Shown here: piece after piece, positions 28,090-64,000 of the stretch
Position numbering within the stretch: position 1 is the stretch's first letter
How the letters are laid out: the number at the start of each line of letters is the position of its first letter
Assembly: GCA_025526915.1 (NCBI GenBank)
Contig: JAHLKH010000034.1
Span: 119,005-183,004 of the forward strand
Direction: 5' to 3'
DNA from: Entophlyctis helioformis
Lineage: Eukaryota; Chytridiomycota; Chytridiomycetes; Chytridiales; Chytriomycetaceae
DNA length: 64,000 bases
The notes under the pieces: model-generated
The model's database searches: none
The model's input: the letters and a program-made list of their open reading frames with translations, nothing else
What the model was told of the DNA's origin: nothing
Position numbers and translations under genes: made by a program

Positions 28090-28169
28090 GTGTGTGGCCA
28101 AAGTGTGGGTCACGTGACCTGACGAGCAACACAAAAAGTGACAAGCAGTGCCAAACAGGCAAAAGGTGT

Positions 28170-29565: not shown

Positions 29566-32500
29566 CTAAGAGGATGCAGGGGCGTTGCACACACGAGAGG
29601 CAGAAGTGCGGGCAACGATGGACGCATAGGACACAGGACGGGGAACCGTGCGCTCAGAGCGGCGAGGTGGGGCGGGATGGTTGAGAGGGGGGAGAAACGA
29701 GAGAGAGAAGGAAGGAGGAGAAGAGGGAGGAGGGAGAGGAGGGAAAGATGGAGAGAGAGAGGGAGATGCGGGTGCAGCAGGTGCGATCGGCTCGTCAGCC
29801 GGAGCAGGTGCCGCGGGCGTGGCTGCTGCTGGAGCAGGGGCCACTGGTGCAGGAGCAGGCGCAGCGCGCTTGCGGCGAGAGGGCTTGGATGCCTTGGGCT
29901 GCGTGGGAGCAGGCGCCGCGGCTGGAGCAGGAGCAGCCGGTGCAGGAGCAGCCGGTGCAGGAGCCGCGCGCGTGGGCTGAGCCGGTTTGGACGCCTTGCC
30001 CTTAGGCGCCTTGGTCGGCCGAGCATGGAACGCCTTGACGAGGTCCTGGGCCTTGCGCATGTCGGCAGCTGGGACCCATGTGTTGTCGTCGGCTGGATAG
30101 CCAACCCACTTGACCAGATACTCGATCTTGCCGCGATAAGTGCGCGAGTCGACGATCCGCTCGACCTCGTAGTTGTCCGACGTGCCGTCGTCGGCGTGGT
30201 ACTCGGGGTCCGGCCGGGAGGGCACATCCTTGCGGCCGGTGGGCGCAGACAGAGGGTCGACATACGGGCAGATCCGGTCGGCATGGAACACGTTGTGGAC
30301 GCGGTGCAGCGAGGCAGGCAGCGCAAGCGTGTAGTTGAGGCCAGATTCACCAGAGTCCAGGCTGGTGATGGCAAAAGGGCCAAGCCACTTGGCGGCCGTG
30401 AGCGGCGGGCGGTGCGAGTCCGCCGGCCAGGAGATGCCCTCAGCATTGAGGAGCACCATGTCGCCGACCTTGTACGCAGGGTGACGGCGGCGACGCTTGT
30501 TTGCCTGAACGGCCATGGCTGCCTGGGCTTTGCGCCGATTCAGAATGGCCGAGTCGCGAGCAGCAGCCATGTCCAGCAGCAGGTCGCGGGCCGCGGCAGA
30601 TGGTGCCAGGGCTGGCTCGGACGGGAAGGACCGCGGGTGGCGGCCAAACGCCAGGAAGAAGGGTGCAAAGCCAGACGACGCAGACGGCGCGCAGTTGAGG
30701 CCAAAGCAGGTGGGACCAGCAGCAGCGGCCAGTCAGAGCCGTGGTAATCGGCCGCCTTGGCGAGCGCATCCTTGATGGTGCGGATGCTGCGTTCGGCCAA
30801 GCCGTCAGTCTGCTGGTGGCGAGCCGTGCTGAGGTTCTGCTTGATCCGGGCAGCGGTGCAGAGGCTCGACCAGAAAGCCGACAACCAGCGGGCGTCGCGG
30901 TCCGAGACGATGTCGACAGGGAAGCCCTTGCCCGAGCAGACCCAGCGAGTCAGGAAGAGCTCGGCCAGCTCCTGGGCCGACGACGAGCGGCGGCACGGGA
31001 ACGCGTCGCAGAGACCGGACAGGCGATCGACCACAACCAGAGCAGCATCAAACGCATCGTCTTGTCCGCCCGCGGGCAGGAACATGACGTCCATGGCGAC
31101 GCTCGAGAAGCAGTCGTCCGGGATCGCGAGTGGATGCAGCAGGCCGTCAGGCCGGTGGTTGGGCGTGCGGTGGCGCTGGCACACGTCGCATGAGGCGACA
31201 TAGGCAGCAATGTCCTCAGACATTCTGGGCCAGAAGTACCGGTTCGACAAGCGGCTGGTGGTCCGCTGACGTCCCTGGTGCGCACCGAAGGGAGAGTCGT
31301 GGTAGTGGGCGAGCAGATCCGCGCGCAGAGACTGCGGCACATACAAGCGGTTGCCCTTGTACCACCACGCACCATCCAAGCACTCCATGTGCACTACGAC
31401 CTTGCGGTCGGCCGGCGTGGCTGACGACGGGTCAGCCTTCCAGCCAGGCAGTCTGGAGGCGAATGGGTCGGCCGGCAACGCCGCACGCACGTCTTTCGCC
31501 CAGTCAGAGTCAGTGCGCAGATTGGCAGCACGGATCGGGACGGGCGAGCGACAGTTTGTGCAGAGAGGGGCCTTTGAGGGATCGCGGGACAGCAGATCGG
31601 CCAGCGAGTTGAGCTCGCCAGGCACGTACTCGATGGATGTATCAAACTCCTGCAGAGACAGGACCCATCGAGCCTGCCGATCCGACAGGTGGGGCTGCGT
31701 GGCCAACCAGACCAGCGCCTTGTGGTCAGTGTGCGTGACAGAGCGCACACTGGACAGCAGATGACGGAAACGCGAGAAGAACTCCACGATGGCGAGCAAC
31801 TCGCGTTCGTGGGTTGGATAGTTCATCTCGGCTGGGCTAAGCTTACGTGACCAGCAGGCCACCAGCTTCTCGCCATCTGGGTGGATCTGCGACAGGTAGC
31901 CGGCAATGACGTAGTTGCTGGCATCAGTGTAGACATGCGTTTCCAGAGCCGGGTCAAAGAACCGCAGCTCGGTGCTTTCAGCACTGCCTGTCGCAGGTCT
32001 TCCACAGCCTGCTTTTGAGCAGGGCCCCACTCCCACTTGGCATTCTTGGCTAGTAGCTTGTAAAGTGGCAGACACATGGTGGCGTACGCCTTTGCAGGGT
32101 TCGGCCCACCAATGAATGACTTTAACCACACAAGCTTGCCAAGCCAAGTTGCCAGAGTGGTTGTGTTTGAGATGTGTGGCGCTGCTGCCATGTCCTGCAA
32201 GTGCTTTGGCGCAATGGAATAACCAGTGGGCGAAAGCACGTGACCGCAGAACTCAATGTCCTGCTGCAGGATCATGCACTTGGACGGCTTAATGTACAAT
32301 TGAGCCTCCAGTAGCAGCTTGAGAACAGTGCGTAGGTGTTTGATATGCTCCTTGTACGTCGCGCTGTAGATGTAGATGTCATCCATGTACACCGAGACGC
32401 ACGTGCCCAGCAGCTCATTGAGCGTCGACTGGATGGCCTGTGTAAACACAGCCGGAGCATTGGTCAGCCCAAAAGGCATGACCGTGAACTCAAAGTGACC

Positions 32501-33668
32501 AAACTGGGTGGAGAACGCAGTTTTCCACTGGTCCTCCGCCTTAACACGAATGTTAAGGAAGCCCTCGCGGATGTCAAGCATCGAGCGGAAGGGTTTGTTT
32601 GCCAAGTTATCACGGAGGGTCTCAATCTCCGGGATCGCACTGTGGAACTTCACCGAGATGTTGTTCAAGCCGCGGTAGTCGATGACCAACCGCAGCGAAC
32701 CATCCTTTTTGCGGACAAAGAGCGTGCCGGCGCCCAAAGGCGATGACGAGCGGCGGATGTAACCTTTGGTGTACCACTCGTCTAGCTGCTTCTTGAGCGC
32801 TATGGATGCATCCTGGTTCAGTCTCTTGAGGCCACGACGCGGCGGCAGCTGCGCATCCTTAATGAAAGGGATCGCAATCTCGAACTCCGAGTCGTGCGCA
32901 CGGCCTTGCGGCGGGCAGCAGACCTCGTAGTACTCGATGAATGCCTTCTGCGTCTCCTCGTCCGGGCAGACTGGAAGGTAGGGGTACTTCTCCTTCAGCT
33001 CGTCCGGGGTGAGGCCGTTTGCAGCCGCGACGCGAAGGCGCGCATCAGCAGCTGCCTCACGGTCCTCAGGCAGGTCATCCACATAGACCAGCTCCGCATA
33101 CTCGTCAGGATGGGCGAGGATGTCCGACATGGTAACCACGATGTCAGAGTGCGGCCGGTTGTGGGGTGCAGCAGACGGCGGAGCGTCTTCGTGCTGCCAG
33201 ATGTGGTGCACATCGGGGCGCGACTCGGTTGAGAAGCGGAAAACGCCGCGACGGAAGTTGAATGACGCCTTCGCGGTGGTGCGCAGCCACGGCATGCCCA
33301 GGATGACATCATCCACACCGTCATAGACAAGGAACCGCACCTCTGACAGCATCTGTTCTGTCAGCGAGCGTGAGGTAGACCTCTGAATCTAGCCTCTGCA
33401 AGTTGCCGTTGGCAAACTCGAGAGTCACCGCCTGCCGGGTGAACGGCCGGGCAGCGGCGAGCAGGCCGTTGGCATCCAACCAACGGCGAGCCACTAGATT
33501 CGCGCTGCTGCCAGTGTCCACCAGGACGCTGGCGCTGCGATTGTCTAAGAAGACAGGGAAGGTGCACCGGTTCTCTGTGATGGGCTTCACAGGAGCCAGG
33601 TGCCCCTCCTTCAGTCGCGACGGCGGCAACACAGGACAAACAGGGTGATCAGGGGCCACAGAGGGCAC
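29566..33668 (-). pseudogene. Chromovirus pol: protease, RT, RNase H, integrase, chromodomain
   Basis: Protease frame 33668-33321 has VLVDTGSSANLVARRWLD. Reverse transcriptase frame 33352-31823 has WYTKGYIRRSSSPLGAGTLF, LRLVIDYRGLNNI, FGHFEFTVMPFGLTNAPAVF and the catalytic VSVYMDDIYIYS. RNase H/integrase frame 32147-30540 has VYTDASNYVIAGYLSQ, DHKALVWL, the HHCC finger (HYHDSPFGAHQG...CDVCQRH) and the catalytic core (VAMDVMFLP, VSDRDARWLSAFW, QQTDGLAERSIRTIKDAL). Frame 30570-29566 carries the integrase tail YKVGDMVLLN and a chromodomain (NYEVERIVDSRTYRGKIEYL, VKWVGYPADDNTWVP). A Pro/Ala/Ser-rich C terminus follows. Frame changes near 33350, 31990 and 30700 are not at positions expected for programmed shifting, so the gene is broken. 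Confidence 0.88.
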
Positions 33669-35723: not shown

Positions 35724-35983
35724 TGTAGCACTGGGCCTCCAGGCAGACTTGCCGGCTGGTCTCTCGGGTCAGTATGTGTGCACGCGAGGAAGGGCGGGCA
35801 GACGACTCTTCATTGGGAGGCAGCACAGACCTGGTCTCTCGGGTCAGTATGTGTGCACGCGAGGAAGGGCGGGCAGACGACTGCAAGAACGGGGGAAACC
35901 AGAGCGGCCAGTGCGGCCCGACAATGTCTGTCCGGTCACGTGGGTCACGTGGATCACGTGACCGCGACCGAGCATCCGTTACA
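35724..35983 (-). repeat. Chromovirus LTR (5' LTR of the minus-strand element)
   Basis: 260 bp with the same ends as the 29256-29512 copy. Differences are clustered in the two internal repeats: here CTGGTCTCTCGGGTCAGTAT replaces CTGGTTGCAGGGGCAGTGAG. The copies are far from identical, which is unexpected for LTRs of one insertion. It is joined directly to copia coding sequence at 35984. Confidence 0.85.
35937..35960. promoter_or_regulatory. Triple CACGTG E-box array in LTR
   Basis: Three palindromic CACGTG sites at 35937, 35946 and 35955, exactly 9 bp apart, repeated in the other LTR at 29466, 29475 and 29484. They lie near the upstream end of the LTR in element orientation (U3), a promoter position. 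Binding by a bHLH factor is inferred from the motif only. Confidence 0.6.
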
Positions 35984-38900
35984 TGCATCGAACACTTCCA
36001 CAGCGGCCTCACGGAGACCGTCCCTCAGGTCGTAGCCGGTATTGGCAACCAGTCCCTGACAGCCACGCTCTCTGGCACTATGCACGTTCCCTGCATCACC
36101 GAGACCGGCGAGCACTGCCTGACGCTGCGCGACGTGCTGTTTGTCCGGGACCTCCCCTTCACACTGGTCGCCCACCGTCGCCTTCTGGAAGACGGCCTGC
36201 ACCCGCAACTTGCCGGCTTCAACGGCCTGCGCGTGCTGAGCGCCGACGGATCGTCCGTTGTCGCGTGGTTCCACTTCGACGAGAATGGACTCCTGCGGCT
36301 CGTCAGCCCCTCAGCTGAGCACCGCACTGAGCCGGTCCTCCTGCCGCACGGTTCAGACGCTCTCGCGCTCCTTGTCACCAAGCGTACCCTGCGCGAGTGG
36401 CACGCATGCATGCACATCTCCCGTCAGAACGCCGTCCAGCTCGCAAACGCCAACCCAAACTTTGTGGTCACCAAGCTCGACATGACCGACAACTCCGAGT
36501 GCCTGCCCTGTGTTGCCACGCGCACCCCTCGTGCCTCCTACCCGGCATCGACCACGCCCCTACTTCCACGGCCCCTTGCTCTGGTCTCGGCCGACCTCGG
36601 CTTCCCCGTCATGCCCGAGACGCCAGGCAAGAAGATGCACTATCTCGTGCTGATCGATCACTACACGCGATTCTCGGCCGTGTTCCTGCTGTCAGCCAAG
36701 CATGAGGCCGCAGGTCACATCACGTTCTTCCTGAAGAACGCTCTAGCCCTCCATGAACCCCATCACTGCGTCACGTTCCGCTCCGACAAGGGCGGCGAGT
36801 TCATGTCGCAGGAGCTCCTCACCTTCTTCCGGGATCATGGCATCAGTCGCGACCTGTCGACCACAGCCACCCCCGAGCAGAACGGTATGGCCGAGGCCGT
36901 CAACCGCACTCTCAAGGGCCTGCTGCGCGCCCTGCTCAAGCAAAGCGGCCTGCCAGACAATCTGTGGGGCGAGGCTCTCATGTACGCCAACTGGATTCGT
37001 AACGTGACGCCGCACTCGGCCTTCACGCCCGGCGTCACCCCATTCGAGATGTGGTTCGGCTACAAGCCCGACTATAGCCTGTTCCTCATGTTCGGCCAGC
37101 TCGTGTACGCCCACGTCCCAGCAGACCATCGGCGCGCACCTGACGACACGCACATTCCTGGCCGATTTGTTGGCATCGACGACGAGTCCAAGGCCATCCG
37201 CGTCTTGTGCAACGCCACAGGCAAGGTCATCCCAAGCAGCAGCTTCCGCTCCGTCGACCGGTCGCCCATCTCGCTCGATGTGCCTTACCCCTCGCTTTCG
37301 TCTCGCCTAAGCAACTCCGACTCTGCCCTCAGCGAGGTGCTCCAGCTGTCCTTCCCTACACCGCCTGTCACCGCCGAGTCAATGTTCGCCCAGCAGGAGC
37401 GCGACCAGGAGGCCGAGCTCGACCTGCTCGCTGCCAAACTCGGCCTTGCCTCCCCTGAGGCCGGCGGCAATGACTTCGCCTACGCCGACCCACCATCTGG
37501 CATGGCACCACCTGCCACTGCAGTCTCGTCTGGGGGGGATGGTGCAGTCTCAACTTCAACTGTATTGGCAAACGGCGCCGCGCCAGGAGGAGCCACGACT
37601 GTGCTCAACAACACGCAAGTGCTGCGACGATCTGCGCGCATCAGCCAACTGCACAATGCCAGTCAAGCAGCACTCGCCGTGGCGCCACCATCCATCAGCA
37701 GCAACGGGTACGCACTGTTCGCAGGAGCGTTCGCCCTCCTCGCGTCCACGACCAGCAGCCCCACCGACATGCCGGTCCCGCTCAACTGGAAGGAGATGAC
37801 GCACCCAGGCTACAATGGCATCTGGGTCGCGGCAGCCACGAAGGAGATCCGGTCATGCCTTGCGAACGGCACCTGGGAGCTCGTCTACCAGACACCCGAC
37901 ATGATGCTCATCACGTGCAAGTGGGTCAACAAACTCAAGACGCTCCCACCACCGGCGACCGAGCTGCTGCCCAAGTCCCGCATCGTGATCCGAGGCTTCC
38001 AGCAGACTCCCGGCGTCAACGTCTTCGAGACATACGCGCCGGTCATGCGAATGAGCTCACTGCGCCTACTGCTCACCATCGCAGCGACTCTGGACCTCGA
38101 GATGGCACAGTGGGACGTCTCCACCGCATTCCTGCACGCGACACTCAAGGAGGAGATCTACATGGAGCTGCCGCCCGGCATCACCGAGATGGGTATCGAC
38201 GAGATCGACAACGCCATCCATGCTGCGAACGGCCGCCCCCTCGTCTGCCGCCTCCGCAAGTCACTCTACGGACTCAAGCAAGCTCCACACGAGTGGAACA
38301 AGGCCCTCACGGCTGCTCTCCTGGAGCAAGGCATGTCCGCCACGTCCGACCCATGCATATTCATCTACACTGGCAAGCCCGACAAACCCGGCAAGATCAC
38401 TGGTCGCCTCTTCATCGGAGTGTACGTTGACGACATGATCGCGGCCACCGACAACATGGCCCTTCTCGAGCAGGTCCGTCGTGGCCTATTTGAGACCTTT
38501 GAGATGAAGGATCTCGGCGAGCCCAAGGTCATCATCGGCCTCGAGATCATCCGCGACAGGAACGCCCGCACCCTCACGCTGCACCAGTCCCGCTTCGCAC
38601 AATCGATTCTTGACGAGGCCGGAACCTGGGACCTCGGCTCTGCCTCCACTCCTGCCCGCTCCTCGGATGGACCAGAGAGCTCACACAGACCCCAGGAAAA
38701 GGAGGAGCACGAGCCGATCGTCGAGCACAGCGCCTATCGTCACGTTGTCGGCCAGCTCATGTACCTGATGTGCGGCACGCGCCCCGACATCTCCACCGCC
38801 GTCGGATTCTGCGCCCGGTTTATGCATGCACCGTCGTCTAGTCACTGGACCATGGTCAACCGCGTTCTCGAGTACCTCAATGAGGAGCCGTCTCTCGGCC

Positions 38901-39442
38901 TTACCCTCGGCGGCCACGCGACCACAGCCGCCGGCGACCTGCACCCGCTGACCTGCTACGCCGACGCTGACTGGGCCGGCTGCAAGGACACTCGTCGATC
39001 AACCTCAGGCTACTGCGTCTTCTTCGGCAAGTCGCTGGTCTCCTGGAAGAGCTCCCGCCAGAAGTCGGTCGCCACATCCACTGCACAAGCTGAGCTCATG
39101 GCTACCAGTGCAGCTGGGCGAGAGGTTGTATCCATCCTCTGCGTCCTTGAGGGACTTGGCTTCAAGCAAGGCGGGCCAGTCACCATGTTCAACGACAATC
39201 AGGCCTGCGTCTCAAACCTCAACAACGCTGGCCGCATCAACCAAGAGACCAACAAGCACATCGCTGTTCGGCACTTCTACGTCCGCGAACTCATCATTGA
39301 CAACATCGTCGCGGTCGCATGGATACCAACAAAGGAAATGGTTGCCGATATCTTCACCAAAGCCCTCGCCAAGGATCCCTTCGTTGCGTGCAAAGGACAA
39401 CTCGGTATGATTGACGCGCTCACACAAAAGGAGGAGTGTTGA
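35984..39442 (+). CDS. Copia Pol polyprotein (partial, frame open)
   Basis: More than 1,150 codons without a stop. The order is the protease tail (VLFVRDLPFTLVAHRRL), pre-integrase (LREWHACMHISRQNAVQLAN), then the integrase core (HYLVLIDHYTRFSAVF, FRSDKGGEFMSQELLTFFRD, TATPEQNGMAEAVNRTLKGL, D-D-E complete) and FEMWFGYKPDYSLFLMFGQL. Next come reverse transcriptase (WVNKLKTLPPPATELLPKSR, YAPVMRMSSLRLLLTIAATL, WDVSTAFLHATLKEEIYMEL, CRLRKSLYGLKQAPHEWNKA, IGVYVDDMIAATDNMALLEQ with YVDD) and RNase H (YADADWAGCKDTRRSTSGYC, STAQAELMATSAAGREVV, NKHIAVRHFYVRELI). The stop codon lies inside the 3' LTR start. Despite the missing 5' end the pol frame is undamaged, so truncation was recent relative to mutation. 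Confidence 0.93.
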   Translation, partial: CIEHFHSGLTETVPQVVAGIGNQSLTATLSGTMHVPCITETGEHCLTLRDVLFVRDLPFTLVAHRRLLEDGLHPQLAGFNGLRVLSADGSSVVAWFHFDENGLLRLVSPSAEHRTEPVLLPHGSDALALLVTKRTLREWHACMHISRQNAVQLANANPNFVVTKLDMTDNSECLPCVATRTPRASYPASTTPLLPRPLALVSADLGFPVMPETPGKKMHYLVLIDHYTRFSAVFLLSAKHEAAGHITFFLKNALALHEPHHCVTFRSDKGGEFMSQELLTFFRDHGISRDLSTTATPEQNGMAEAVNRTLKGLLRALLKQSGLPDNLWGEALMYANWIRNVTPHSAFTPGVTPFEMWFGYKPDYSLFLMFGQLVYAHVPADHRRAPDDTHIPGRFVGIDDESKAIRVLCNATGKVIPSSSFRSVDRSPISLDVPYPSLSSRLSNSDSALSEVLQLSFPTPPVTAESMFAQQERDQEAELDLLAAKLGLASPEAGGNDFAYADPPSGMAPPATAVSSGGDGAVSTSTVLANGAAPGGATTVLNNTQVLRRSARISQLHNASQAALAVAPPSISSNGYALFAGAFALLASTTSSPTDMPVPLNWKEMTHPGYNGIWVAAATKEIRSCLANGTWELVYQTPDMMLITCKWVNKLKTLPPPATELLPKSRIVIRGFQQTPGVNVFETYAPVMRMSSLRLLLTIAATLDLEMAQWDVSTAFLHATLKEEIYMELPPGITEMGIDEIDNAIHAANGRPLVCRLRKSLYGLKQAPHEWNKALTAALLEQGMSATSDPCIFIYTGKPDKPGKITGRLFIGVYVDDMIAATDNMALLEQVRRGLFETFEMKDLGEPKVIIGLEIIRDRNARTLTLHQSRFAQSILDEAGTWDLGSASTPARSSDGPESSHRPQEKEEHEPIVEHSAYRHVVGQLMYLMCGTRPDISTAVGFCARFMHAPSSSHWTMVNRVLEYLNEEPSLGLTLGGHATTAAGDLHPLTCYADADWAGCKDTRRSTSGYCVFFGKSLVSWKSSRQKSVATSTAQAELMATSAAGREVVSILCVLEGLGFKQGGPVTMFNDNQACVSNLNNAGRINQETNKHIAVRHFYVRELIIDNIVAVAWIPTKEMVADIFTKALAKDPFVACKGQLGMIDALTQKEEC

Positions 39443-39507
39443 GAATGTGTGTGCGAGCGCGTGTGATAATGAAGTTACCTTATCCTACCAAATCCAACTC
39501 ATCAACG
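39437..39507 (+). repeat. Copia 3' LTR fragment
   Basis: Begins TGTTGAGAATG directly after the polypurine tract, a common copia LTR start. Similarity to duplicated unit A begins at about 39510, so only ~70 bp can be assigned to the LTR. Whether it is a whole very short LTR or truncated cannot be decided without a 5' copy. Confidence 0.55.
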
Positions 39508-39509
39508 CC

Positions 39510-40913
39510 ACACACTCCACAAACGCCACGACGGCCAACTCGGCTGTCGCATCGCCTGTAAGTGTCGCATGCTTCCACACGGCATGCTGGATCGTCCTCT
39601 GTGCTGCTCGCATGGCATGCCTGTTGTCTTGCCATCTTGCTGTCCTTTTATCGCATCCCACCGCTCGCTCTGCCCCTCCCCCGCCCCAGCAAGCTGCCTC
39701 GCATGCTTTGTCTTCCATCACGATCCGCATTCGCCGCACATCGCGTCTTGGGACATCCACTCGTCTGTCTGTTTGTTTGCCATGTGGATCTGATGGGCGA
39801 CTTTGAGTTGCTGCGCTGTCTGGCTGGCTGGCTGGCTGAGTGGATGTCCCCAGACTGCGGCCACTCTCCCATGCGGCTGCCTTGACTGTCTGGCTGACCA
39901 TCCCATCCACATTCCCTCTCATATCACGCATCAGACCAACACCACGGCCGCCCAGTCCGACGCGTCTCCGTCCACCGCACCGGCCGTCGCTCCCGCCGCG
40001 TCGCCGACCGTTTGGAACTTTGCTGCCCCGAGTTCGAGCCGGCCGTTCCCTTCAAGTGGAACGTTCGGGCCCCAGAGTTCATTCCGGAAGGCGCGACACC
40101 ACCGACGCGGACTATAAGCGCCGTCCAGGCCAAGACCGCCAACAACAAGGCCGCTAAGAATGTCAGCGCTGGCAAGCCGCCCGCTGCCGCCAAGCCGCCC
40201 GTCCCGCCCAAGGCGTCGGCCAACAAGACCGCTTGACCGTCGACACCACCGCTCCGGCACCGGCCACCCCCAAGCTCCCCGGCATCGACAGCGCCAAGGC
40301 AGTCACGCCACTCGTGTACCCTGTAAGTCTCGACTGAATGCACGCTTTGCTTGGCACGATTCGATGCTGACATGGCCATGCTCCACCAGCTGATGACTGC
40401 CGGTCAAGTGTTCGACCGGCAGTTCCAACAGCTGCACGAGCACCGCCGTCACCACCTTGCCTGCACGCGCGGCTGTTGCATGCCGATGCCGGTCCTTTGT
40501 TCCTCGCCATGCCTTGACACGGCATGGCAGTGGAACGGCGTCGACCGTTTCCAACGAGTTGTAAGTCACATTACTGTGCATTTGAGTGCGTGTCTTGACA
40601 GCCAGCCGACTGACACTGACTGCGTGGCTTGCAGTTTGTCAACTTCGACAACCACACTGGCCTCTTATGTGCACGCCGTGGTGTGCAGCTACTGCTGCCC
40701 GCACCTGCCAGGCGGTGAGTGCTCATTGACATGCGGCTGTGTTGTGGTTGGATGCCTGTGCTTGATCATGGACTGACGATCGTGGTGGCTGTTTGATGCG
40801 CAGCCATTCCGACTCCCACATTCATGTCGTGGGCCAACTCTGACCGCTGGGCCATGCAGTGGGTCGGCACCACATACAAGATGGTGCCTGCCACTCTCTG
40901 GCGTCCATGCTGA
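39510..40913 (+). pseudogene. PAM2-like/Cys-rich gene, copy A (frameshifted)
   Basis: Lacks exon 1. Remaining exons by comparison with copy B: end of exon 2 at 39557, 39935-40322, 40390-40560, 40635-40714 and 40804-40913. In exon 3 one C is missing (about 40025), which puts EFEPAVPFKWNVRAPEFIPE in another frame. In exon 5 a base is lost near 40663, destroying the Cys motif frame. The final exon still reads PTPTFMSWANSDRWAMQWVG and ends LWRPC. The copia element replaces the 5' end. Confidence 0.8.
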
Positions 40914-41015
40914 GCGGCTCTTCTCTGTCTTCTTCTTCTCGATTGTTTCCTATAATAGATGTCAATCCAACAAGCCGATGAAGCATTCATTGCATCGTGG
41001 TCCAGAGACTGCTGC

Positions 41016-41078
41016 ATGGCTGCGGCTGCTCGCAAGACGGCGCTGTCCATCATCGCCGTCGCTGCCATCGTGGCTGGA
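41016..41078 (+). pseudogene. 5' fragment of RING-H2 gene in unit A
   Basis: Codes [20 protein letters not shown], the signal-anchor start of the RING protein at 61985-62449. Similarity then stops at about 41078 in unrelated sequence. The RING finger itself is absent. Confidence 0.8.
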
Positions 41079-41302
41079 TGCCGTTGGCCACTTCGTTGCA
41101 CTCGTTTGAATTTCTGGTTGGCCAGTGATCGTTCAACGTCGTCGCCTGCCACTTGCCGACGTACAAGGCCGCAGTGAACAGCCCGACCCTACCGCAGCCA
41201 GCACACCAGCCGCCGCTCGTTAGCAAGCACAGCAGCACCGACTGCAGCCAAAACATACACACAAACACACACACAGCGCCAGCACCAGCAGCACCAGCAG
41301 CC

Positions 41303-52855: not shown

Positions 52856-54736
52856 ATGGGAACGCATCAGGACTCGGGAGCGGCAGTCATGGTCGCCGAC
52901 CCGGTGCGCAACTGGTACTACGCCATCTCGCTCGTCCTGCTCTCCTCGGCGTGCATCTACATCTCTCTGTGTACCCAGTCTGCGTCCGCGTCCAAGTCTG
53001 GCATTGCAGCAAACAGCACCGCCTCGTCACCGTTCCATCTCATCCTCCGCGGCGGCTTTGGACGCTCGTTCACCCGCCTTGTCGGTGCTGTCGGCCAGCT
53101 GAGCCGCGGACCACGCTCGTCGTTCCGGTCGTTCCAGTTCAACTACCTCGTCGTCTACTCGCTCGTGTTTAGTATGCTGCCCCATCTTTGCCCCGCCCCT
53201 CTCTGCCGCTGTCTCTGTCGCTGTCTCTGTCACTGTCTCGCTCGCTCGAGCACGCTTTGTTGTTGCTGACGCGTCCATTCTTGTTCGTGCAACAACAAAA
53301 CCATCAACCCGTTGCAGTGGCGGACTGGCTGCAAGGGCCGTACATTTATGCGCTGTACAAGTCGTACGGATACGAGCTGGACTCTATTGCGCTGCTGTTT
53401 GTCGCAGGCTTCTTGTCGTCGGCAGTCTTTGGCACCTTTGTTGGCTCGCTCGCAGATCGATTGTGAGTCGCCCGGATGCCACACACTGCCGGTTTGCATC
53501 GTCGGCTGACCCAACTGACGATTCCTGGGGCTGCCGGGCTGCACAGTGGCCGCAAGCTTGGCTCTGTGCTATTTTGCGGCTTCTACATCCTGTCGTGCCT
53601 CACAAAGCTGTCGACCACGTTCAGCGTGCTCATGGTCGGCCGTCTCCTTGGCGGCATCTCGACCTCCCTCCTCTTCTCTGTGTTCGAATCGTGGATGATT
53701 TACGAGCACCGGTCTCGTGCCTTTGACGAGTCTCTCCTCTCGGACACGTTCGCGTGGGCAACCTTCGCCAACGGTCTTGTGGCCATCGTGTCTGGGCTGA
53801 TTGCCAACATTGTCGTCGAGGTGTTTGGACTGGTCTCGCCCTTCATGGTCGCCATCGTGTTCCTTGGACTCGCACTGGTCATCATCCAGTCCACCTGGTC
53901 CGAGAACTATGGCAACAAGGTAAGGAGTATCCTTGTCGGCACTCTTTCCTGCATCCCCACCGACTGACGCTCTCGATGGCTTGCGGACACAGATTGTTTC
54001 TTCTCCGTCGCCCTCGTTCCTGTCTGTCGTCGACTCGATCTACCACGACCCCAACATTCTCGCGGTCGGCACAATGCAGTTCTGCTTCGAGAGCGCCATG
54101 TACACGTTCGTGTTCCTCTGGTCGCCCGTGCTCGAAACCGTGACCGACTCCCGCATCGCCCTCCCCTTTGGCGTCATGTTCTCCAGCTTCATGGTCTGCA
54201 TCATGCTCGGCTCGTCTCTCTACAAATCGCTCACACTGCGCCAGTTCTCCAACGAGCTCATTGCCAACGCGACATTCGGCGCGGCAGCCCTGACGTTCCT
54301 CGTGCCAGCCGTCACCAGAAACGAGGCCATCATCTACATCGCGTTCAACGTGTTTGAGCTCTGCTGCGGCGTGTATTTCCCCGCCATGGCGTCCATCCGC
54401 AGCAAAGTCGTGCCCGAATCCACCCGGTCGACCGTCATGAACATCTTCCGCGTGCCGCTCAACCTCATTGTCGTGCTCATCCTGCTCAAGGCAAACAGCC
54501 TGCCCGCGTCGCTCTTCTTTGTCGTGTGCGCGGGCCTGAACGTGACGGCCTTTGTCTTTGCCAAACAGCTCTCGGCTACATCCGCACTGGTCGTCGTGTA
54601 CCAGGAGGCATCTGCACGCGACGAAGAGGCTGCCCTGGATCTGCCCACAAACAACAAGGAGCGCTTTGATCTGCAGCCACAGGAAACAATGGCAGGCAAT
54701 GCCAAATCCGCTGAGACGGCTACCACTATCCAATAA
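52856..54736 (+). CDS. MFSD5: MFSD5-like major facilitator (molybdate-anion transporter type)
   Basis: Polytopic membrane protein of the MFSD5/MOT2 branch, proposed molybdate-anion transporters. Four exons: 52856 to ~53172, ~53318-53462, ~53547-53920 and ~53994-54736. Signature pieces are FQFNYLVVYSLVFS, VADWLQGPYIYALYKSYGYE, IALLFVAGFLSSAVFGTFVG, SLADRLGRKLGSVLFCGFYI (the MFS loop 2-3 motif D-x-x-GRK), LLFSVFESWMIYEHRSRAFD, GTMQFCFESAMYTFVFLWSP and FNVFELCCGVYFPAMASIRS. About twelve hydrophobic segments can be counted. The C-terminal tail is acidic and probably cytosolic. The start lies only 71 bp after the AMP deaminase stop on the same strand. Confidence 0.9.
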
Positions 54737-54947
54737 ACGACTTGCCTAGTCTTGCCTGAACGGCGTTGAATGGAATCGCTCCGATACGTCCAGCTTGTTT
54801 ACTCGGAAGAATGCACAGAGATAATCCATCATGGACATCATGCAAATCAAGATATGGTATTCTTTCCCACGACGTTCACGAACAGGAGCATGCCAAAGCA
54901 TATCAGAGCTGAATCCTGGCAAGCTGGAAGGAAAGGAGATGATAGTC

Positions 54948-56490
54948 TCTGGACCACGATGCAATGAATGCTTCATCGGCTTGTTGGATTGACATCTATT
55001 ATAGGAAACAATCGAGAAGAAGAAGACAAGGAAGAACCGCTCAGCATGGACGCCAGAGAGTGGCAGGCACCATCTTGTATGTGCTGCCGACCCACTGCAT
55101 GGCCCATCGGTCAGAGTTGGCCCACGACATGAATGTGGGAGTCGGAATGGCTGCGCATCAAACAGCCACCACGATCGTCAGTCCATGATCAAGCACAGGC
55201 ATCCATCCACAACACAGCCGCATGTCAATGAGCACTCACCGCCTGGCAGGTGCGGGCAGCAGTAACTGCACACGCATGGCGTGCACATGTAAAGGCCAGT
55301 ACATACGTCAAAGTTGACAAACTGCAAGCCACGCAGGCAGTGTCAGTCGGCTTGCTGTCAAGACACGCACTCAAATGCACAGGAAATGTGACTTACAACT
55401 CGTTGGAACCGGTCGACGCCGTTCCACTGCCAAGCGGTATCTAGGAGTGGCGAGGAACAAAGGACCGGCATCGGCAAGCAACAGCCGCGCGTGCAGGCGA
55501 GGTGGTGACGGCGGTGCTCGTGCAGCTGTTGGAACTGCCTGTCAAAGACCTGACCGGCAGTCATCGGCTGGTAGAGCATGGCCATGTCAGCATCGAATCG
55601 TGCCATTCAAAGTGTGCATTCAGTCGAGACTTACAGGGTACACGAGTGGCGACACCGACTTGGCGCTGTCGACGCCTTGTGGCTTGGGGTTGTGGCAGGC
55701 TGCCGGCTTGTTGGTGTCGACGGTCAAGTTTGTCTTGTTGGCCGACGCCTTGGGCGGGACGGGCGTCTTGGCGGCAGCGGGCGGCTTGCCAGCGCTGACA
55801 TTCGACGCGGCCTTGTTGTTGGCGGTCTTGGCCGGGACGGGCGGCTTATAGTCCGCGTCGGTGGTCGTCGCGCCTTCTGGAATGAACTCTGGGGCCCGAA
55901 CGTTCCACTTGAAGGGAACGACCGGCTCGAACTCGGGGGCAGCAAAGTTCCAAACGGTCGGCGACGCGGCGGGAGCGACGGCCGGTGCGGTGGACGGAGA
56001 CGCGTCGGGCTGGGCGACCGTGGTGTTGGTCTGATGCGTGATATGAGAGGGAATGTGGACGGGATGGTCAGCCAGACAGTCAAGGCAGCCGCATGGGAGA
56101 GTGGCCGCAGTCTGGGGACATCCACTCAGCCAGCCGGCCAGCCAAACAGCGCAGCAACTCAAAGTCGCCAATCAGATCCACATGGCAAACAAACAGACAG
56201 ACGAGTGGATGTCCCAAGACGCGATGTGCGGCGAATGCGGATCGTGATGGAAGACAAAGTATGCGAGGCAGCGTGCTGGGGACGGGGAGGGCAGAGCGAG
56301 CGATGGGATGCGATAAAAGGCGGCAAGACGGCAAGATAGCAAGGCGGCAGGCATGCCATGCGAGCAGCACAGAGGACGATCCAGCATGCCGTGTGGAAGC
56401 ATGCGACACTTACAGGCGATGCGACAGCCGAGTTGGCCGTCGTGGGTTTGTGGCGTGTGTGGCGTGTGTGGCCGACGAGCTGCATGGGAA
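54948..56490 (-). repeat. Duplicated unit B
   Basis: Minus-strand copy of the same unit as A and C. At its low-coordinate end similarity stops at the AGTCTCTGGACCACG sequence, before the RING start that A and C retain. It contains the only open copy of the PAM2-like/Cys-rich gene. Confidence 0.88.
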
Positions 56491-56669
56491 GCAGAGCGAG
56501 AGAGGCGATAGAGAAGCACGGCAGACAACGGGCAGTCGGCATAACCCATCAGATCATGCGATGCGGCAGCCGAGAGAGCAGCAGCAGGGCAGAGTGCGAC
56601 ACGCAGCACGGATGGCACTGAGACTTGCCTGGCAGCGACAGTGGACGAGGATGCGTTGGTAGAGGACAT
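55041..56669 (-). CDS. PAM2-like motif + Cys/Trp-rich protein, copy B (intact)
   Basis: Family not recognised. Exons: 56669-56625 (MSSTNASSSTVAARQ), ~56479-56414, 56030-55635, 55567-55397, 55321-55240, 55150-55041; sum 870 nt, in phase, 289 residues. The exon 1 donor is weak (CAA/GTCTCA); alternatively translation starts at ATG 56485 (MQLVGHT). Exon 3 has FEPVVPFKWNVRAPEFIPEG, which fits the PAM2 consensus (N-x-x-A-x-E-F-x-P) that binds the MLLE domain of poly(A)-binding protein; a Lys/Pro/Ala linker follows. The C-terminal part has FDRQFQQLHEHRRHHLACTR, GCCLPMPVLCSSP, LYMCTPCVCSYCCPHLPG and MSWANSDRWAMQWVGSTYKM. Nine or more cysteines suggest metal binding or disulphides. A role in mRNA regulation is inference from the PAM2-like motif only. 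Confidence 0.65.
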
Positions 56670-57979
56670 GTTGTATTGCTTGTGAGTATATCTCGAGTCT
56701 TGATTCGTGTCGGATATGGCGGAAAGACAGGAGCCAGACGCGATGCTGGCAGAATGTCGCGAATTGCGATGGCGATTGGTGTGTCTGGAAATGCGACCCG
56801 AAATGACGGCACAGAGCACAAACAGCAATGCAAATGGGCAATGCGAGTGAATGGCGTCGGCAGTCTGGTGGTCCAATGAGCCTGTCTTCCTGCAGCTGAG
56901 GCGATGGCTGTGACGATGGACAGGCAGGGCGATGCAGCAGCACACGCCAGAGACACAAGACGGCCAAGGCAGGCTGCCACACAGCGTGCATCATGCGGCA
57001 TCATCAATCGCCCCTCGCCCAGCACGGCATTGCCCATGCATGCCTCGCTGCTCTCTGTCCCGCATCTCTGCATCTGCCAGCCACGCGTCCATTCCCTCAT
57101 GTGGCATTGCCGCCTCGTTCTCGTCCCTCGGCATGCTGCTGTGCGAGCAACGCGTGCCGCGCGTGTTGGTGATCGCGAGATCCACCGTCTGTCCGCATCA
57201 CCATCGCCACATCACCGGCACTCAGTGTCGCTGTCCCTGCGCAGCATCGACTGTCGTGTCTCCACCTGCCGCCCTTTCCCACGCCGTCCACCAACCACAC
57301 ACCGCCGCCTGATCCAGCCACGACACCAGCCGCTCTTGCCTCTCCAACAGCCTGCAAGCCGCTCGTTGTCCACAGCCAGCCAACCGACTGCTCCTTGCAC
57401 AAGCGAGCGGCATCCATCGCGACGTGGCTGGCGTGACTCGTTGGCTGATCGTGGTGCCGCGTGTTGATCGCTGCTCGTTCGTGTCTCTCTGCCTGCCTCC
57501 AGCCGAGCCAACTCGCCAGCCGTCCAGGCTGTCCGCCCATTGCACGAATCCATTGGTGCGTGACAACCAGCTCGCTCATGCCGTGCTCGGCATTCGTCTG
57601 ATGTGCGATGCAGCTCGCACGAGCCACCACGACCGCATCCAGGCACTGCATCGTCGCTGCTCTTCTCCAGCACCAACCGATGCGGTCAATGCACCTGGGA
57701 ACAGCCGGCTGCGGCACTTGCTCGCTTCATGGACACGCAGCCACTCTCCTCGTTTGTTTTGTATCTGTCGGCTGCCTCCACAGACACGCACAGATCCACA
57801 CAGCAGCGGCTGTTCCACCAGAAAGCGGCCAGCCAACGGCACGGCAAGCGACACGACGCACACACGAGCAGCATAACAGCAGCAAGCATTCCACACATCT
57901 TTCCGCATTCCCCAACTTTTACAAAACTCAAGATGCTCTCGATTCTCAACATCAAGACAGCACATTCGCGGAAGTGGCG
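56670..57979. other. Divergent 1.3-kb spacer
   Basis: Lies between PAM2 copy B (minus) and the Cys-motif gene (plus). Long frames occur on both strands (for example 57097-57717 minus and 57424-57876 plus), but they are rich in Cys, Arg, His and Trp, match no family I know and have no consistent splice phasing. Part is likely promoter and 5' UTR. An ATG at 57932 precedes the chosen start of the downstream gene in another frame and could act as a uORF. Confidence 0.35.
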
Positions 57980-59288
57980 ATGCTGGGCCACATCAACACG
58001 CAGGGTACGCTCCTCTGCCATGTCGTCTTCCTGATCTGCTCGCATCGCATGCATGCTTCCTTTGTGTCCGTGACCTTGTGCGTGCCGTCTGCCTTCTGTG
58101 CGGCTTGCCTCTCTCATGCTCCACATGCTCGCGACGGTTGCATTGTTTCTGATTGCTCTGAGCATCCGCTGATCCACTGACCTGCTTGCCATTGCCGTGC
58201 AATCGCAGGCAACTCGCCTCGCATCTACCGTTGGGTGAAAGCCCCCAAAGCGGTCCAGCAAGCTTCCATCGCCCAGCCGCCAAGCACGCCAAAGGCGGCT
58301 GGAGTGACCGTCCCTTACATTCCCATCCGGCCAGCGTGAGTTGATTGCAGAGCGTGTCTGTCTGCGTGTCTGCATGCCTTGCTTGCTCCTTTGTCATTCT
58401 TCACTTTGTCGCAGCCAGTCTGCATGGGCCAGCAAGTCGAGCGACGCGGTTTTGGCTGGCTGGCTGGCTGGCTGGCATGCGTCCTCTGTTGCAGACAGAC
58501 TAACGCCGCATGGGCATCTTGCGCCGTGACAATCTGTCCACTGACACTGCTCTCTCCTTCTGTCTGTCTGTCTGTCTGCTTTCCTGCCTTTCCCGTCGTG
58601 CCTTTCGCCTGCTCGTTCTGTGCCTCAACAGCCATCGCAGCCAACCATCGAGAGCCATCCGAAACGCCGTCGTTCTCAAAGAGAAGAAGCCATCTGCCGC
58701 TGCCGCTGTTGTCCCCGCCGATCCAACGGCAACAATCGCCGAGCTCGAGGCCTCCACCACCACCACAAAGGACGACGACGACGAGATCGACAGCGAGTCT
58801 CTCCTCTGCCCGTTCCCACAGTAAGCTGCATCTGATCGTGCTGCCTCACTGTGTCTCATGCGCCGATTGCCAGCCAACTCACACTCCGCCTGGCCGTCCT
58901 GGCATTCCACCATGCAAACAGGTGCGGTTACTGGCCCGTCTATGGCTTCTGTGGATGCATCTACAGTCGCCGAGCAAGAGGTATGTGACGCTGCTGGTGT
59001 CCCTGCCTGGCATGCTGTGCATCATGCATTGTTGGTCAATGGCGCGGCTGACTCGTGCATGGATCGCGATGGATCTGTGCTCTTGCAGATGCTGCTCTGG
59101 CTGCAGCAGGTGCCAAGGCTGCATCTGATGTCTCGGCTACGACCACGACGCAGGCTGAACTGCCGCCCCTGCCAGCCAAGCCTGCCAGCAGCAAGGTCTT
59201 TGCTGCGATTGATGTCCCGATGGCCAATCGTTCTCACAAGGCGAAGCGCAGCACCAAGAAGGCTGCCAAGGGCTGCCAAGTGAGGTGA
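57980..59288 (+). CDS. Unknown protein with CPFPQCGYWPVYGFCGC motif
   Basis: Five exons keep frame: 57980-58004, 58209-58335, 58641-58820, 58922-58980 and 59089-59288. They give a ~196-residue protein starting MLGHINTQGNSPRIYRWVKA. The middle is VPYIPIRPAQPSRAIRNAVV and a Thr/Asp/Glu-rich acidic stretch (TTTTKDDDDEIDSESLL). Directly after it is CPFPQCGYWPVYGFCGCIYS: four cysteines and several aromatics within 20 residues, generated across the exon 3-4 junction. The C terminus is Ala/Thr/Pro-rich and ends in a basic tail (HKAKRSTKKAAKGCQVR). The fact that phased splicing assembles the Cys/aromatic motif supports a real gene. I do not recognise the family. No signal peptide or membrane span. 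Confidence 0.6.
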
Positions 59289-59401
59289 TGGGATCCCTCC
59301 GCCTTCAAGACTCTTGTTTCAATAGACTGCTTTCTCTCTCGACCACTTCATTGGCATTTCAAGCGAGCAGCACAACGAGTGCGAGATGGCCAGCAGAGTG
59401 C

Positions 59402-61575
59402 TCACATTGTGAATGCCGTCGCCAGCAGCCGCTCAATGCCATCCATCCTGGCTGGCTCAACCACAACCCGCAAAGATCCCTCGTTGCGCTTGCTGTGCAG
59501 CCACTTGACGACGCGTGCGTGGCCCTCCTGCGCAGCCCAGTCAAACACGTTCGCACTGCAGCCCTCGCTCCTGTTCTCGTGCAGCCAGACAACAACGTCC
59601 AGGTGTCCACGTGCTGCTGCCACATCCAGTGCGAGGGGAGTCGCACTCGCATTGTGCTCATTCAGAACCTCGAGAACGCCAAGAGCGCCATGTGCAGCCG
59701 CCACATGCACCACAGACCCGCCATGCCGCACCGACTCGTCGTGTCTGTCCAGATCCTGAACAAACAGCGTCTGCTTGTCGAGCATCTTTGCGAGTGCAGC
59801 CGCGTGTCCGCCCTTCACAGCGTGCATGCCAAGGTCGGCAGGTGGCCAAGGTGGCAGGCCGTCGAGCCACAGTCGCTGCATGGACAGATCAGCAAGCAGA
59901 GCCTGCATCTCGGTGCTTGGGAATCGGCAGCAGAGAGCCTTGGCCATTGCGCTGCTCTTGACTCGGTCGAGTTCCCCGCGACTCAGCTTGGCATCTGGGA
60001 GCAGAAGCAGACTGCCCGTCCAGTCCAGATCGAATGCATCCCTCCACAGACGCATCTTGGCATCGCCAGTCATGACCGTCCTGGACAGCCGGCCGTTGAG
60101 AAACTGTGTCAGCGGTCCCGCGAAGCCAAGAATGATGTCCTGGATGCGCGAGGGGAGACTATCCCAATGGCTGGTTGGCTTTGGTGGTGGAGCGACTGGC
60201 TTGGGGGTTCGGCGGCTGTGGAGGAGCCGGCTGTTGCGCAGACAGATCAGACCATGGCAGATTGGGAACCTTTGGCTTTGGCTGCTTCTGTTGAAAGAGA
60301 GAAAGGCGATGCGCGACTGGCTTTGGAGGATCGGCTTGCTGCTGCTGCTGCTGCTGCTTTGGATCTGCTGGCGACTGCTGTTCGACCACAGCCTTCTCTG
60401 GGGAATCGGCTGGACCGGCACTCGCACCTCTGGCTTGAGCACCTTCATGGTGGGTCGTGCGGGAGGCTGTGCTGCAGGTATTGGCGGTGCAGGCGGCACC
60501 ACTGGTTGTGGCTGCATTGGAGACGCAGTGACTGTTGCGCGAGTTCGGGCGAGCAAGGTGGAGCATGCGGTTGCTGCTTTGGCGACTGCGGCTGAGGATA
60601 CACGGCAGGATCGGGCTGCTTCGGAAGGTGCACATCTGGCATGGTTGGGTCGAGTTGGACAGGCTGTTGGTGCGGCAGGTGCTCGGCGATTGGCGTCGCA
60701 AGTGGCGGATGCTGTGCGGCTCGGGCAAGTTGAACAGCATGCTTTGGGTGGCAGATCGAAAGATATTGTCACTTGCTGCACTTTCTGCACTCGCTGCTGC
60801 CAAACCGTTGGCTTCAGAAGATCTGCCACTGGATCGGCAGGCTTCTGGAATGCAGCTGGCATGGGCGGTTTGAGCTGGGCAGGCTGCAGACGCGGTTGGT
60901 GCTGCTCGACTGGATCCGGCACCGGCATGGGCTGCAGTGGTTCAGCAGGTTGATGCTGCCCGGCTTGCATTGTCGACGGTGCTGGGAGTGGGTCATGGCG
61001 TTCGACTGCTTGAGCCGCGACGCTCGCTGCGAGGTGGATTGGGGGCTGAGTGGAGCAGTAGAGCCAGCAGCAGCAAGGTCCACGGGAGGAGGGCCGGCTT
61101 GCGGCAGCTGGCAGTGCGGACTAGGCGCCGCGCTGGATCGGGGCGGCGTGGCAGGCTTGTTGGCGGCCTCTGCAGCAGACGCGGCTGCCATCGCAGGCGG
61201 TGCACCAGCAAGGCTGGAGTTGTCAAGATGAGTGCGCGCGTCGGCTCGCACGCTGACAGCAGCCTTGTCCGGCGGCTGCTGGACAGGCGGGACCGGTGTG
61301 ACTGACGGGGAAGGTGCCGCGGTCTCCACAGCAACAGCAACCGCTTGCTTGGCGTGCGGCGCACCGTGAGTGGCATCGTGCGTGGCATCTGCAGGCGGCC
61401 GTCTGGGCGGCGAGCAGTCGTTGGCAGCGGGACGGTCAGCCGCCTCAGCCGACAAGTCTGGTGCGCGGCTGTCCGGGCCAAAGACGATGCACAGAACGAT
61501 GGCGGCGACGAGGGCCGACTCGGCCGGGAAGGCTGCGGCAGCACAGTCAGATGCGAGCCAAGCGCGCGCTCTCAC
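59402..61575 (-). CDS. Ankyrin-repeat protein with F-box-like segment
   Basis: The well-supported part (about 60200-59402) starts SHWDSLPSRIQDIILGFAGP, an F-box-like L-P helix region. It continues with MRLWRDAFDLDWTGSLLLLP and ankyrin-type repeats: GMHAVKGGHAAALAKMLDKQ, VVHVAAAHGALGVLEVLNEH, TPLALDVAAARGHLDVVVWL, DWAAQEGHARVVKWLHSKRN. It ends ERLLATAFTM. Upstream (61575-60200) is a Gln/Pro/Ala-rich region with a CTG/CAG tract at 60338-60357. There the most protein-like frame changes several times, for example at the CCCCC run near 60205, so introns, slippage or decay are involved. A hydrophobic stretch (ALVAAIVLCIVFGP) occurs near 61510 in the first frame, which could belong to a separate small gene. 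The broken paralogue is at 28449-29228. Confidence 0.6.
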
Positions 61576-61984
61576 GGCCGTGTGTGTGTAGGCAGGCAGG
61601 CAGGCAGGCAGCCAGGCTTACCATAGACGGCGTAGAGAGGAGCAACAACGACGAGCAGCACGGTGGTGTGAGGGCGAGCGTGCCGTGCCCAACAGCGTCC
61701 ATGCTGCTGCTGCTGCTGCTGTTTGGACAAAGAGCGAGCGATGGATGCGTTGCTGCACCAACAGACGCGTGTGGGATGGATGGACGCGTTGGCTGGATGG
61801 AAGGATGGAAGGAGCAAGGCCAAACAAGGAAGCTGCAGGTACAGAACGGAAATGTGATATTGTGCAAATCCAATGGACAAAAGAAGGGACGTGCATGGCT
61901 GGGCCAGTAACAGGCGAGGGCAACAGGTTGAGAGGGGAGAGGCGAAGGGCGAGAGGCGAAGGGCGAGAGGCGAAGGGCGAGGGA
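61576..61984. other. Spacer with simple repeats
   Basis: About 400 bp between the ankyrin gene and the RING gene. It includes (GGCA)n at 61589-61612, (CTG)n at 61700-61722 and GGCGAAGGGCGAGA repeats at 61939-61982. No coding sequence supported. Confidence 0.45.
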
Positions 61985-62449
61985 TTAGTGCGATGCCGCG
62001 CCAGACTTGTTGCCCTTGCCGTCGTCGGGCAGTCTGCGCACACAGAGCGGGCACTTTGCATTGAGCTTGAGCCACTCGTCGATGCAGTCGACGTGGAAGT
62101 GGTGGTTGCAGGCCAGCTGGCGCAGCGACTCGCCCTCGTCGTACTCGCCCAGACAGATGCAGCAGACGGCGTCTTCTGCGTCCAGCTCGAGCTCCTTGGG
62201 GCCGGCAGCCGCTTGTGCAGCCGCTTGTGCAGCATCGGCGTCGGCGTCGGCACCAGCGTCGGACGCTGAGCCCTTGCCGCGCTTGAAGATGCTGGGCAGC
62301 AGGTTGAACTTGCGGCGTTTCCGCTTGGGCGGTGCGGCCTTGGCCGGACTGGATGAGCCAGAAGGCTCGACACGGGATCGGCTGCTTCCAGCCACGATGG
62401 CAGCGACGGCGATGATGGACAGCGCCGTCTTGCGAGTAGCCGCAGCCAT
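61985..62449 (-). CDS. Membrane-anchored RING-H2 finger protein
   Basis: A 154-residue single-exon protein, probably an E3 ubiquitin ligase. The N terminus [20 protein letters not shown] is a signal anchor. A basic linker ([20 protein letters not shown]) and an Asp/Ala repeat follow. The C-terminal RING-H2 is complete: [41 protein letters not shown], giving C-x2-C-x14-C-x-H-x2-H-x2-C-x10-C-x2-C. A conserved Trp in the E2-binding position (DEWLK) supports activity. The ATG at 62449 was chosen because it begins the hydrophobic segment; an in-frame Met lies 57 nt upstream at 62506 in the spacer shared with units A and B. Confidence 0.85.
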
Positions 62450-64000
62450 GCAGCAGTCTCTGGACCACGATGCAATGAATGCTTCATCGGCCTGTTGGAT
62501 TGACATCTATTATAGGAAACAATCGAGAAGAAGAAGACAAGGAAGAGCCGCTCAGCATGGACGCCAGAGAGTGGCAGGCACCATCTTGTATGTGGTGCCG
62601 ACCCACTGCATGGCCCAGCGGTCAGAGTTGGCCCACGACATGAATGTGGGAGTCGGAATGGCTGCGCATCAAACAGCCACCACGATCGTCAGTCCATGAT
62701 CAAGCACAGGCATCCAACCACAACAAAGCCGCATGTCAATCCACACTCACCACCTGGCAGGTGCGGGCAGCAGTAACTGCACACACACGGCGTGCACATA
62801 TACAGACCCGTGTGGTTGTCGAAGTTGACAAACTGCAAGCCACGCAGTCAGTGTCAGTCGGCTGGCTGTCAAGACACGCACACAATACACAGGAAATGAG
62901 ACTTACAAACGCGTTGGTAACGGTCGACGCCGTTCCATTGCCATGCCGTGTCGAGGCATGGCGATGAGCACAGAACCGGCATCGGCGCGCAGCAACCGCG
63001 AGTACACACAAGGTGCTGGCTGCGATGCTGGTGCAGCTGCTGAAACTGCCGGTCAAAGACCTGACCGGCAGTCATCGGCTGGTGGAGCATGGCCATGTCA
63101 GCATGGGATCGTGCCAAGCAAAGCGTGCATTCAGTCGAGACTTACAGGGTACAGAAGAGGCCGACAACCGACTTGGCGCTGTCGACTCCTTGTGGCTTGG
63201 GGCGAGGGCCGGCTGCCGGCTTGCCAGTGTCGACGGTCAAAGCGGTCTTGTTGGCCGACGCCTTGGGCGGGACGGGAGGCTTGGCGGCACCGGGCGGCTT
63301 GCCCGAGTTGGTCTTCGCGCGACCTTGCGTTGGTTGTCTTGACTGTGACCGGGCGGCTTGTAGTCCGCGTCGTGTCGTCGCGCCTTCCGGAATGAACTCT
63401 GGGGCCCGAACGTTCCACTTGAAGGGAACGACCGGCTCGAACTCGGCGGCAGCAAAGTTCCAAACGGTCGGCGACGCGGCGGGAGCGACGGCCGGTGGGT
63501 GGACGGAGCCGCGTCGGGCTGGGCGACCGTGGTGTTGGTCTGATGCGTGATATGAGAGGGAATGTGGATGGGATGGTCAGCCAGACAGTCAAGGCAGCCG
63601 CATGGAGAGTGGCCGCAGTCTGGGGACATCCACTCAGCCAGCCAGCCAGCCAAACAGCGCAGCGCTCAAAGTCGCCCATCAGATCCACATGGCAAACAAA
63701 CAGACAGACGAGTGGATGTCCCAAGACGCGATGTGCGGCGAATGCGGATCGTGATGGGAAGACAAAGCATGCGAGGCAGCGTGCTGGGGACGGGGGAGGG
63801 CAGAGCGAGTGATGGGATGCGATAAAAGGACGGCAAGACGGCAAGATAGCAAGGCGGCAGGCATGCCATGCGAGCAGCGCCGAGGACGATCCAGCATGCC
63901 GTGTGGAAGCATGCGACACTTACAGGCGATGCGACAGCCGAGTTGGCCGTCGTGTTGGTCGTGGCGTGGTGGCGTGTGTGGCCGACGAGCTGCATGAGAA
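62388..64000 (-). repeat. Duplicated unit C (runs to window edge)
   Basis: Third copy of the unit, same orientation as B, with the RING gene attached at its downstream end. The 5' end of the unit lies beyond 64000. Confidence 0.88.
62552..64000 (-). pseudogene. PAM2-like/Cys-rich gene, copy C (frameshifted, 5' end outside)
   Basis: Exon 2 (LVGHTRHHATTNTTANSAVA), exon 4 (MTAGQVFDRQFQQLHQHRSQ), exon 5 (FVNFDNHTGLYMCTPCVCSY, CCPHLPG) and exon 6 remain open and conserved. In exon 3, however, one base is missing near 63505 and two near 63382, so the PAM2-like stretch is read in a wrong frame before the frame is restored. A further rearranged patch follows the codons for ADYKPP. The differences may be real decay or assembly errors. 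Confidence 0.75.

Follow-up and report, generated by a model that had tools for sequence, protein, structure and literature searches.

PAM2 peptides, ligands of the MLLE domain of poly(A)-binding proteins, share the consensus core N-x-x-A-x-[ED]-F-x-P and have a part in determining which proteins assemble on poly(A) tails. In plants, the available sections of one source describe the PAM2 of CID3 and CID4 as two tandem reiterations (PMC4574140), and excerpts on Upa1 of Ustilago maydis place ankyrin repeats and a RING within the protein (PMC4466420). According to sections of a further study, the first position of the PAM2 pattern of Leishmania eIF4E4 need only be hydrophobic, and the substitution M140A is tolerated (PMC6379680). 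Titles on PAM2 in chytrids and on lineage-specific cysteine-rich PAM2/MLLE proteins, a partial view of that literature, include none on a protein of the kind reported here; one paper mentions PAM2 and chytrid in its available part (PMC12852828).

Here, we describe a genuine, undescribed and lineage-restricted gene family of Entophlyctis helioformis that joins a known docking motif to a new companion part and is laid out in an unusual array. It was met in a window of 64,000 nucleotides, the whole stretch of DNA analysed, which corresponds to positions 119005-183004 of contig C34 in a genome of 29.57 Mb and 482 contigs. A preliminary description of the window had proposed an undescribed, recently duplicated family with PAM2-type and Cys/Trp-rich parts, and copy number, selection on exons 4 and 5, and the lack of a relative in the searches run all bear this out.

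Genomic setting

The family gene adjoins an MFS_5 transporter ORF (53924-54736) that shows 75% identity, across 72% of its length, with a protein from Entophlyctis helioformis and 61-66% identity with Batrachochytrium proteins in the protein database, so the host is a chytrid fungus. A DNA search of the genome with 55041-56669 returned 13 matching pieces on C34, C77, C314, C256 and C196, two of which make up one C196 copy, and the resulting 12 places agree with the 12 genome matches of intron 4. The three local copies counted earlier are present in the window, but belong to this larger set. Copy A (39505-41081, plus strand) has lost its 5' end beside a copia-like element and breaks frame in exons 3 and 5; copy B (55041-56669, minus strand) has six exons with splice-like borders; and copy C (62384-64000, minus strand) loses exon 1 to the end of the contig and breaks frame in exons 2-4. 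Together with A and C, one C314 copy is truncated. Contig C34 ends inside copy C, at base 183004, and contig C314 begins inside another copy. Eleven copies were aligned, namely A, B and C, four on C77 (at 3, 42, 62 and 94 kb), two on C314, and one each on C256 and C196, while the twelfth place, C77 at 78.9 kb, holds a fragment in the region of exons 4-5.

Copies C and B have the same orientation and a spacing of 7.51 kb. In at least eight copies, the similarity reaches far beyond the gene on its upstream side, and the gene is thus part of a larger duplicated unit (54944-62368, minus strand). This unit is 97% identical to C256:20248-27671 and has long stretches in common with C77, C314 and C196. 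In the window, it also carries an ankyrin-repeat ORF (59402-61120, minus strand; Pfam Ank_4, 1.8e-7), with its repeats near the 3' end and with other copies in existence, and a 154-aa RING-H2 ORF (61988-62449, minus strand; zf-RING_2, 9.3e-15) between copies C and B. The ankyrin proteins presumably start with an F-box-like part. A relative adjoins the Pab1 gene on C45, and many contigs carry weak DNA matches to the ankyrin stretch. C77:65251-76897 and C314:9584-21212 have about 11.6 kb in common at 99.5-99.8% identity, so that some copies may represent alternative haplotypes.

Segmental duplication fits this arrangement better than a transposon, since the repeat borders differ between copies. 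A transposon ORF was considered as the identity of the family and rejected, its products having no transposase, integrase or reverse transcriptase domain in Pfam. Such domains occur elsewhere in the window, where Pfam marks retroelement-type coding regions at 25232-27856 (minus strand; reverse transcriptase and endonuclease), 30540-33388 (minus strand; reverse transcriptase, RNase H and integrase) and 35729-39442 (plus strand; RVT_2 and integrase). A tRNA-Gly gene (gcc; 28168-28239, minus strand) has a piece of the duplicated ankyrin gene next to it and was the only result of an Rfam search of the window.

Gene structure

The exons of copy B run on the minus strand from 56669 to 56629 (ending at a GC donor), 56479 to 56414, 56030 to 55635, 55567 to 55397, 55321 to 55240 and 55150 to 55041. 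Its donors read GCAAGT, GTAAGT, GTAAGT, GTAAGT and GTGAGT, and all acceptors end in AG. The exon-1 donor AG/GCAAGT, which gives a GC-AG first intron, is kept in all eight copies having exon 1. With this donor, exon 2 must be 67 nt to keep the frame, as it is in five of the eight copies; it measures 66 nt in B and C77_94k and 65 nt in C314_6k. The in-phase six-exon gene claimed earlier for copy B therefore keeps its six exons (56669-55041) but probably not its phase, because its 289-residue frame requires exon 1 to be extended by 4 nt to the poor donor GTCTCA, which by arithmetic would destroy the frame of the two best copies. Unless that donor is used, copy B probably loses its frame in exon 2, which is one nucleotide short of the length needed.

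The frameshifts reported earlier for the two other local copies in the PAM2-containing exon are there: exon 3 measures 388 nt in A and 394 nt in C, as against 396 nt in B, and both frames break within it. Across the family, the frame is intact throughout in two of the eight full-span copies, C77_42k (287 aa) and C196 (255 aa), both outside the window's contig. C77_94k has no internal stop but leaves the frame in exon 2 and regains it only in exon 4, so that both motifs are missing, and the remaining five meet stops. Splice-site dinucleotides are kept across copies. Some of the frame breaks may be sequencing or assembly errors, as assembly is difficult where repeats are almost identical, and contig ends run through two of the copies.

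PAM2-type motifs and the Pab1 MLLE domain

Copy B carries the motif WNVRAPEFIP (55878-55907, minus strand), as first reported, though not as the single motif then assumed, for a second, WNFAAPEFEP (55923-55952, minus strand), stands in tandem 15 codons upstream. Both fit the PAM2 core in copy B and several other copies, and N, A, E, F and P all agree in both motifs of most copies. The diverged copy C196 has one exact motif: its motif 1 is kept, E-F-x-P bearing a synonymous change, and its motif 2 retains W.....EFIPE, N and A being lost.

A DNA form of N-x-x-A-x-E-F-x-P matched the genome 23 times, compared with one match for a backward control pattern, and 18 of the 23 belong to this family. 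Outside it, FNLMAAEFTP occurs in an Ataxin-2-like gene (with a partial LsmAD match below the cut-off) and FNFGASEFVP in an ORF with Gln/Gly/Tyr repeats on C29 that we take to be eRF3/Sup35-like. Two further exact matches read FNFNAVEFIP and CNVEAPEFVP, and a match on C14, located in a short ORF and with R preceding N, may be chance. When one residue was relaxed, LNVQAPLFVP was found in an NFX1-like ORF (weak zf-NF-X1 match) and LNPLAPKFVP in another ORF. The residue before N is W in the family and F, F, F, L, L and C in the six other PAM2-type motifs of the genome; the hydrophobic residue required at this place is supplied by W, and, an aromatic being usual there in this genome, W is a mild change. 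The PAM2 reading is stronger than when it was proposed, because there are two motifs and because the Ataxin-2-like and eRF3-like ORFs have the same core.

A candidate partner is encoded in the same genome, whose one MLLE domain (100 bits) lies at the end of a Pab1 and aligns over 72 residues with the PABP1 MLLE of solved structures (5e-24). With a limit of E 10, the Pfam PAM2 model PF07145 matched neither of two intact products, and the family is absent among its five genome hits; the model also misses the exact motifs on C29 (the eRF3-like ORF), C42 and C124, and weak matches are discarded by the filters of HMMER.

The C-terminal part

The Cys-rich region and the Trp-rich end named in the preliminary description correspond to the cluster MCTPCVCSYCCPH in exon 5 (55250-55288, minus strand) and to exon 6 (55041-55150, minus strand). 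Over 120 columns of four in-frame products, Cys is invariant at columns 25, 29, 36, 69, 72, 74, 77, 78 and 119, His at 80, and Trp at 45, 47, 93, 99, 103 and 116, although exon 6 is uniform among copies and invariance there says little. The pattern CxxCxCxxCCxH is suggestive of metal binding or palmitoylation.

Relatives were sought widely. For the full-length C77_42k product, none of 3712 protein-database candidates reached E<=1, and no candidate had three words in common with its residues 165-287; because this search relies on 5-residue words in common, it can overlook distant relatives. The database does hold the 75%-identity relative of the neighbouring transporter. None of 101 pattern matches in prokaryote genome contigs, obtained with a query whose exon 2 was partly incorrect, and none of 52 in viral contigs was confirmed. 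Pfam assigned no domain to the two intact products, LSm and LsmAD domains are absent from family products in the same database, and a PDB sequence search with one product gave no match. A profile of the C-terminal part returned two PDB matches only, at E 0.72 and 0.9, which are not convincing.

Selection and exchange between copies

Of the 11 aligned copies, the six that stay in frame through exons 4-6 were used for codon counts in exons 4-5; A and C, which break by exon 5, and C77_94k, C314_6k and C256, which are off frame in exon 4, were left out. Over the 15 pairs of these six copies, which are not independent, exon 4 has a mean dN of 0.083, a dS of 0.821 and a dN/dS of 0.10, and exon 5 a mean dN of 0.039, a dS of 0.476 and a dN/dS of 0.08; third positions hold 68% and 72% of the differences, respectively. 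Exons 4-5 are thus under strong purifying selection, with a ratio of about 0.1 that is far from neutral, and on this account a protein is encoded. Exon 3a, which contains the PAM2 motifs, is too uniform and young among copies to show selection (dN 0.027, dS 0.042; 21 pairs of seven copies).

The constrained exons belong to a divergent core made up of exons 3b, 4 and 5 with introns 3 and 4 (55240-55859, minus strand), whose exons differ by 7-13% on average between copies, compared with 1-5% outside. Among eight copies, mean pairwise difference is 1-5% in the 5' part, 12.8% in exon 3b, 8.1% in intron 3, 11.6% in exon 4, 5.8% in intron 4, 7.3% in exon 5, 4.3% in intron 5 and 1.8% in exon 6. Pooled over 15 pairs of six copies, 185 of 527 four-fold sites in exons 4-5 differ (35%), as against 162 of 2121 sites in introns 3-4 (7.6%), and in exon 6 the four-fold figure is 8 of 306 (2.6%); 12 of 15 Fisher tests pass 0.05/15. 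Copies C and C77_42k differ by 1.7% upstream, 17.1% in the core exons and 0.3% downstream, and C77_94k and C314_6k by 5.3%, 3.8% and 2.0%, so that cores swap between near-identical gene shells.

Exchange by gene conversion accounts for this mosaic, but not for introns that are quieter than silent exon sites. Introner elements are not supported as the cause of the uniform introns, introns 4 and 3 being found only at family places (12 and 10, respectively), and no intronless donor copy was seen among the best candidates of 24 matches. A bolder picture, which we regard as quite improbable, is that of a cassette-swapping locus, in which a chytrid-specific, Pab1-gripping family exchanges an old core, conserved in protein but synonymously divergent, among shells while the core introns stay alike, perhaps shaped by escape from an RNA-level silencing that sees spliced mRNA and not introns, or by self/non-self recognition via poly(A)-binding protein. 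Exon-biased divergence in otherwise uniform copies is in any event a testable puzzle for gene conversion and for selection on synonymous sites.

Interpretation

The reading that we favour, at a probability of roughly 60%, is that of a lineage-restricted family of Pab1-binding adaptors with two PAM2 motifs and a Cys/Trp-rich part. The N-terminal half, which is rich in Ser, Thr, Ala and Pro, is probably disordered and would dock through its two motifs on the Pab1 MLLE, with a gain in avidity or with two Pab1 molecules bound on one tail, and in competition with eRF3, Ataxin-2 and others. Docking would bring the C-terminal part, which is probably metal-binding or membrane-attached, onto poly(A) mRNPs. 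The gene would have spread within the unit of about 7.5 kb, with recombination preserving the similarity of the copies in their outer portions, old and divergent cores surviving under purifying selection, and many copies decaying. An expanding family of this make-up would constitute a new, lineage-made input into translation and mRNA decay in an early-branching fungal group.

Several observations count against an adaptor: PF07145 reports no match, though it misses the eRF3-like motif on C29 as well; motif 2 of C196 is without N and A; the PAM2 exon of the other copies is too uniform for selection to show; and six of the eight full-span copies are off the family frame somewhere. The first two would suit a real protein family whose likeness to PAM2 is incidental, its W-x5-EF-x-P repeat serving another partner and its C-terminal part doing the work, as would the W that replaces the usual L or F at the first hydrophobic position. 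That account is rather unlikely, given that N, A, E, F and P fully agree in both motifs of most copies, that the motifs are near-identical to the genome's other PAM2-type motifs, and that sections of the Leishmania eIF4E4 study ask only for a hydrophobic first residue (PMC6379680). The off-frame copies, together with the repeat of several kilobases and the transposon-rich surroundings, are what a dead or non-coding repeat would leave, all copies being debris of a repeated block with frames open by chance; the concentration of exon 4 and 5 differences at third positions, the dN/dS of about 0.1, two copies in frame over six exons and the kept splice-site dinucleotides make this hardly credible.

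The same surroundings, with the restricted distribution, the many broken copies and the exchange between copies, also recall a selfish family (a killer, a driver or an element-borne gene) that would use Pab1 to reach or block translation, its copy number, decay and core exchange reflecting an arms race as in the wtf genes of fission yeast. Selection on the core is, however, purifying and not diversifying, and we hold this to be very improbable.

Relation to described systems

The wtf meiotic drivers of Schizosaccharomyces are a multi-exon family of restricted distribution in which pseudogenes and gene conversion occur. In this genome behaviour only, as portrayed in excerpts of the literature, do they resemble the present family, whose core is under purifying selection. 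Upa1, in the sections available on it, is likewise a fungal PAM2 protein, and its ankyrin and RING are here found in neighbouring genes. Unlike Upa1, the locus has three separate ORFs in which no FYVE domain was found, and the one MLLE of the genome is that of Pab1, so that a partner of the Rrm4 type is not seen. Plant CID3 and CID4, as partly described, have tandem PAM2 motifs as the family does, but are of the Ataxin-2 class, whereas the family has no LsmAD match.

From the PAM2 proteins of the eRF3, Ataxin-2, Paip1/2 and NFX1 type the family differs in that its first hydrophobic position is occupied by W, that Lsm, GTPase and zf-NF-X1 domains are absent, and that the searches run returned no relative of its C-terminal part. 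The genome's own Ataxin-2-like and eRF3-like ORFs have the same motif core with F where the family has W. As in the known PAM2 proteins, the N-x-x-A-x-E-F-x-P core of the family lies in a Ser/Thr/Ala/Pro-rich stretch, and the genome has a Pab1 MLLE.
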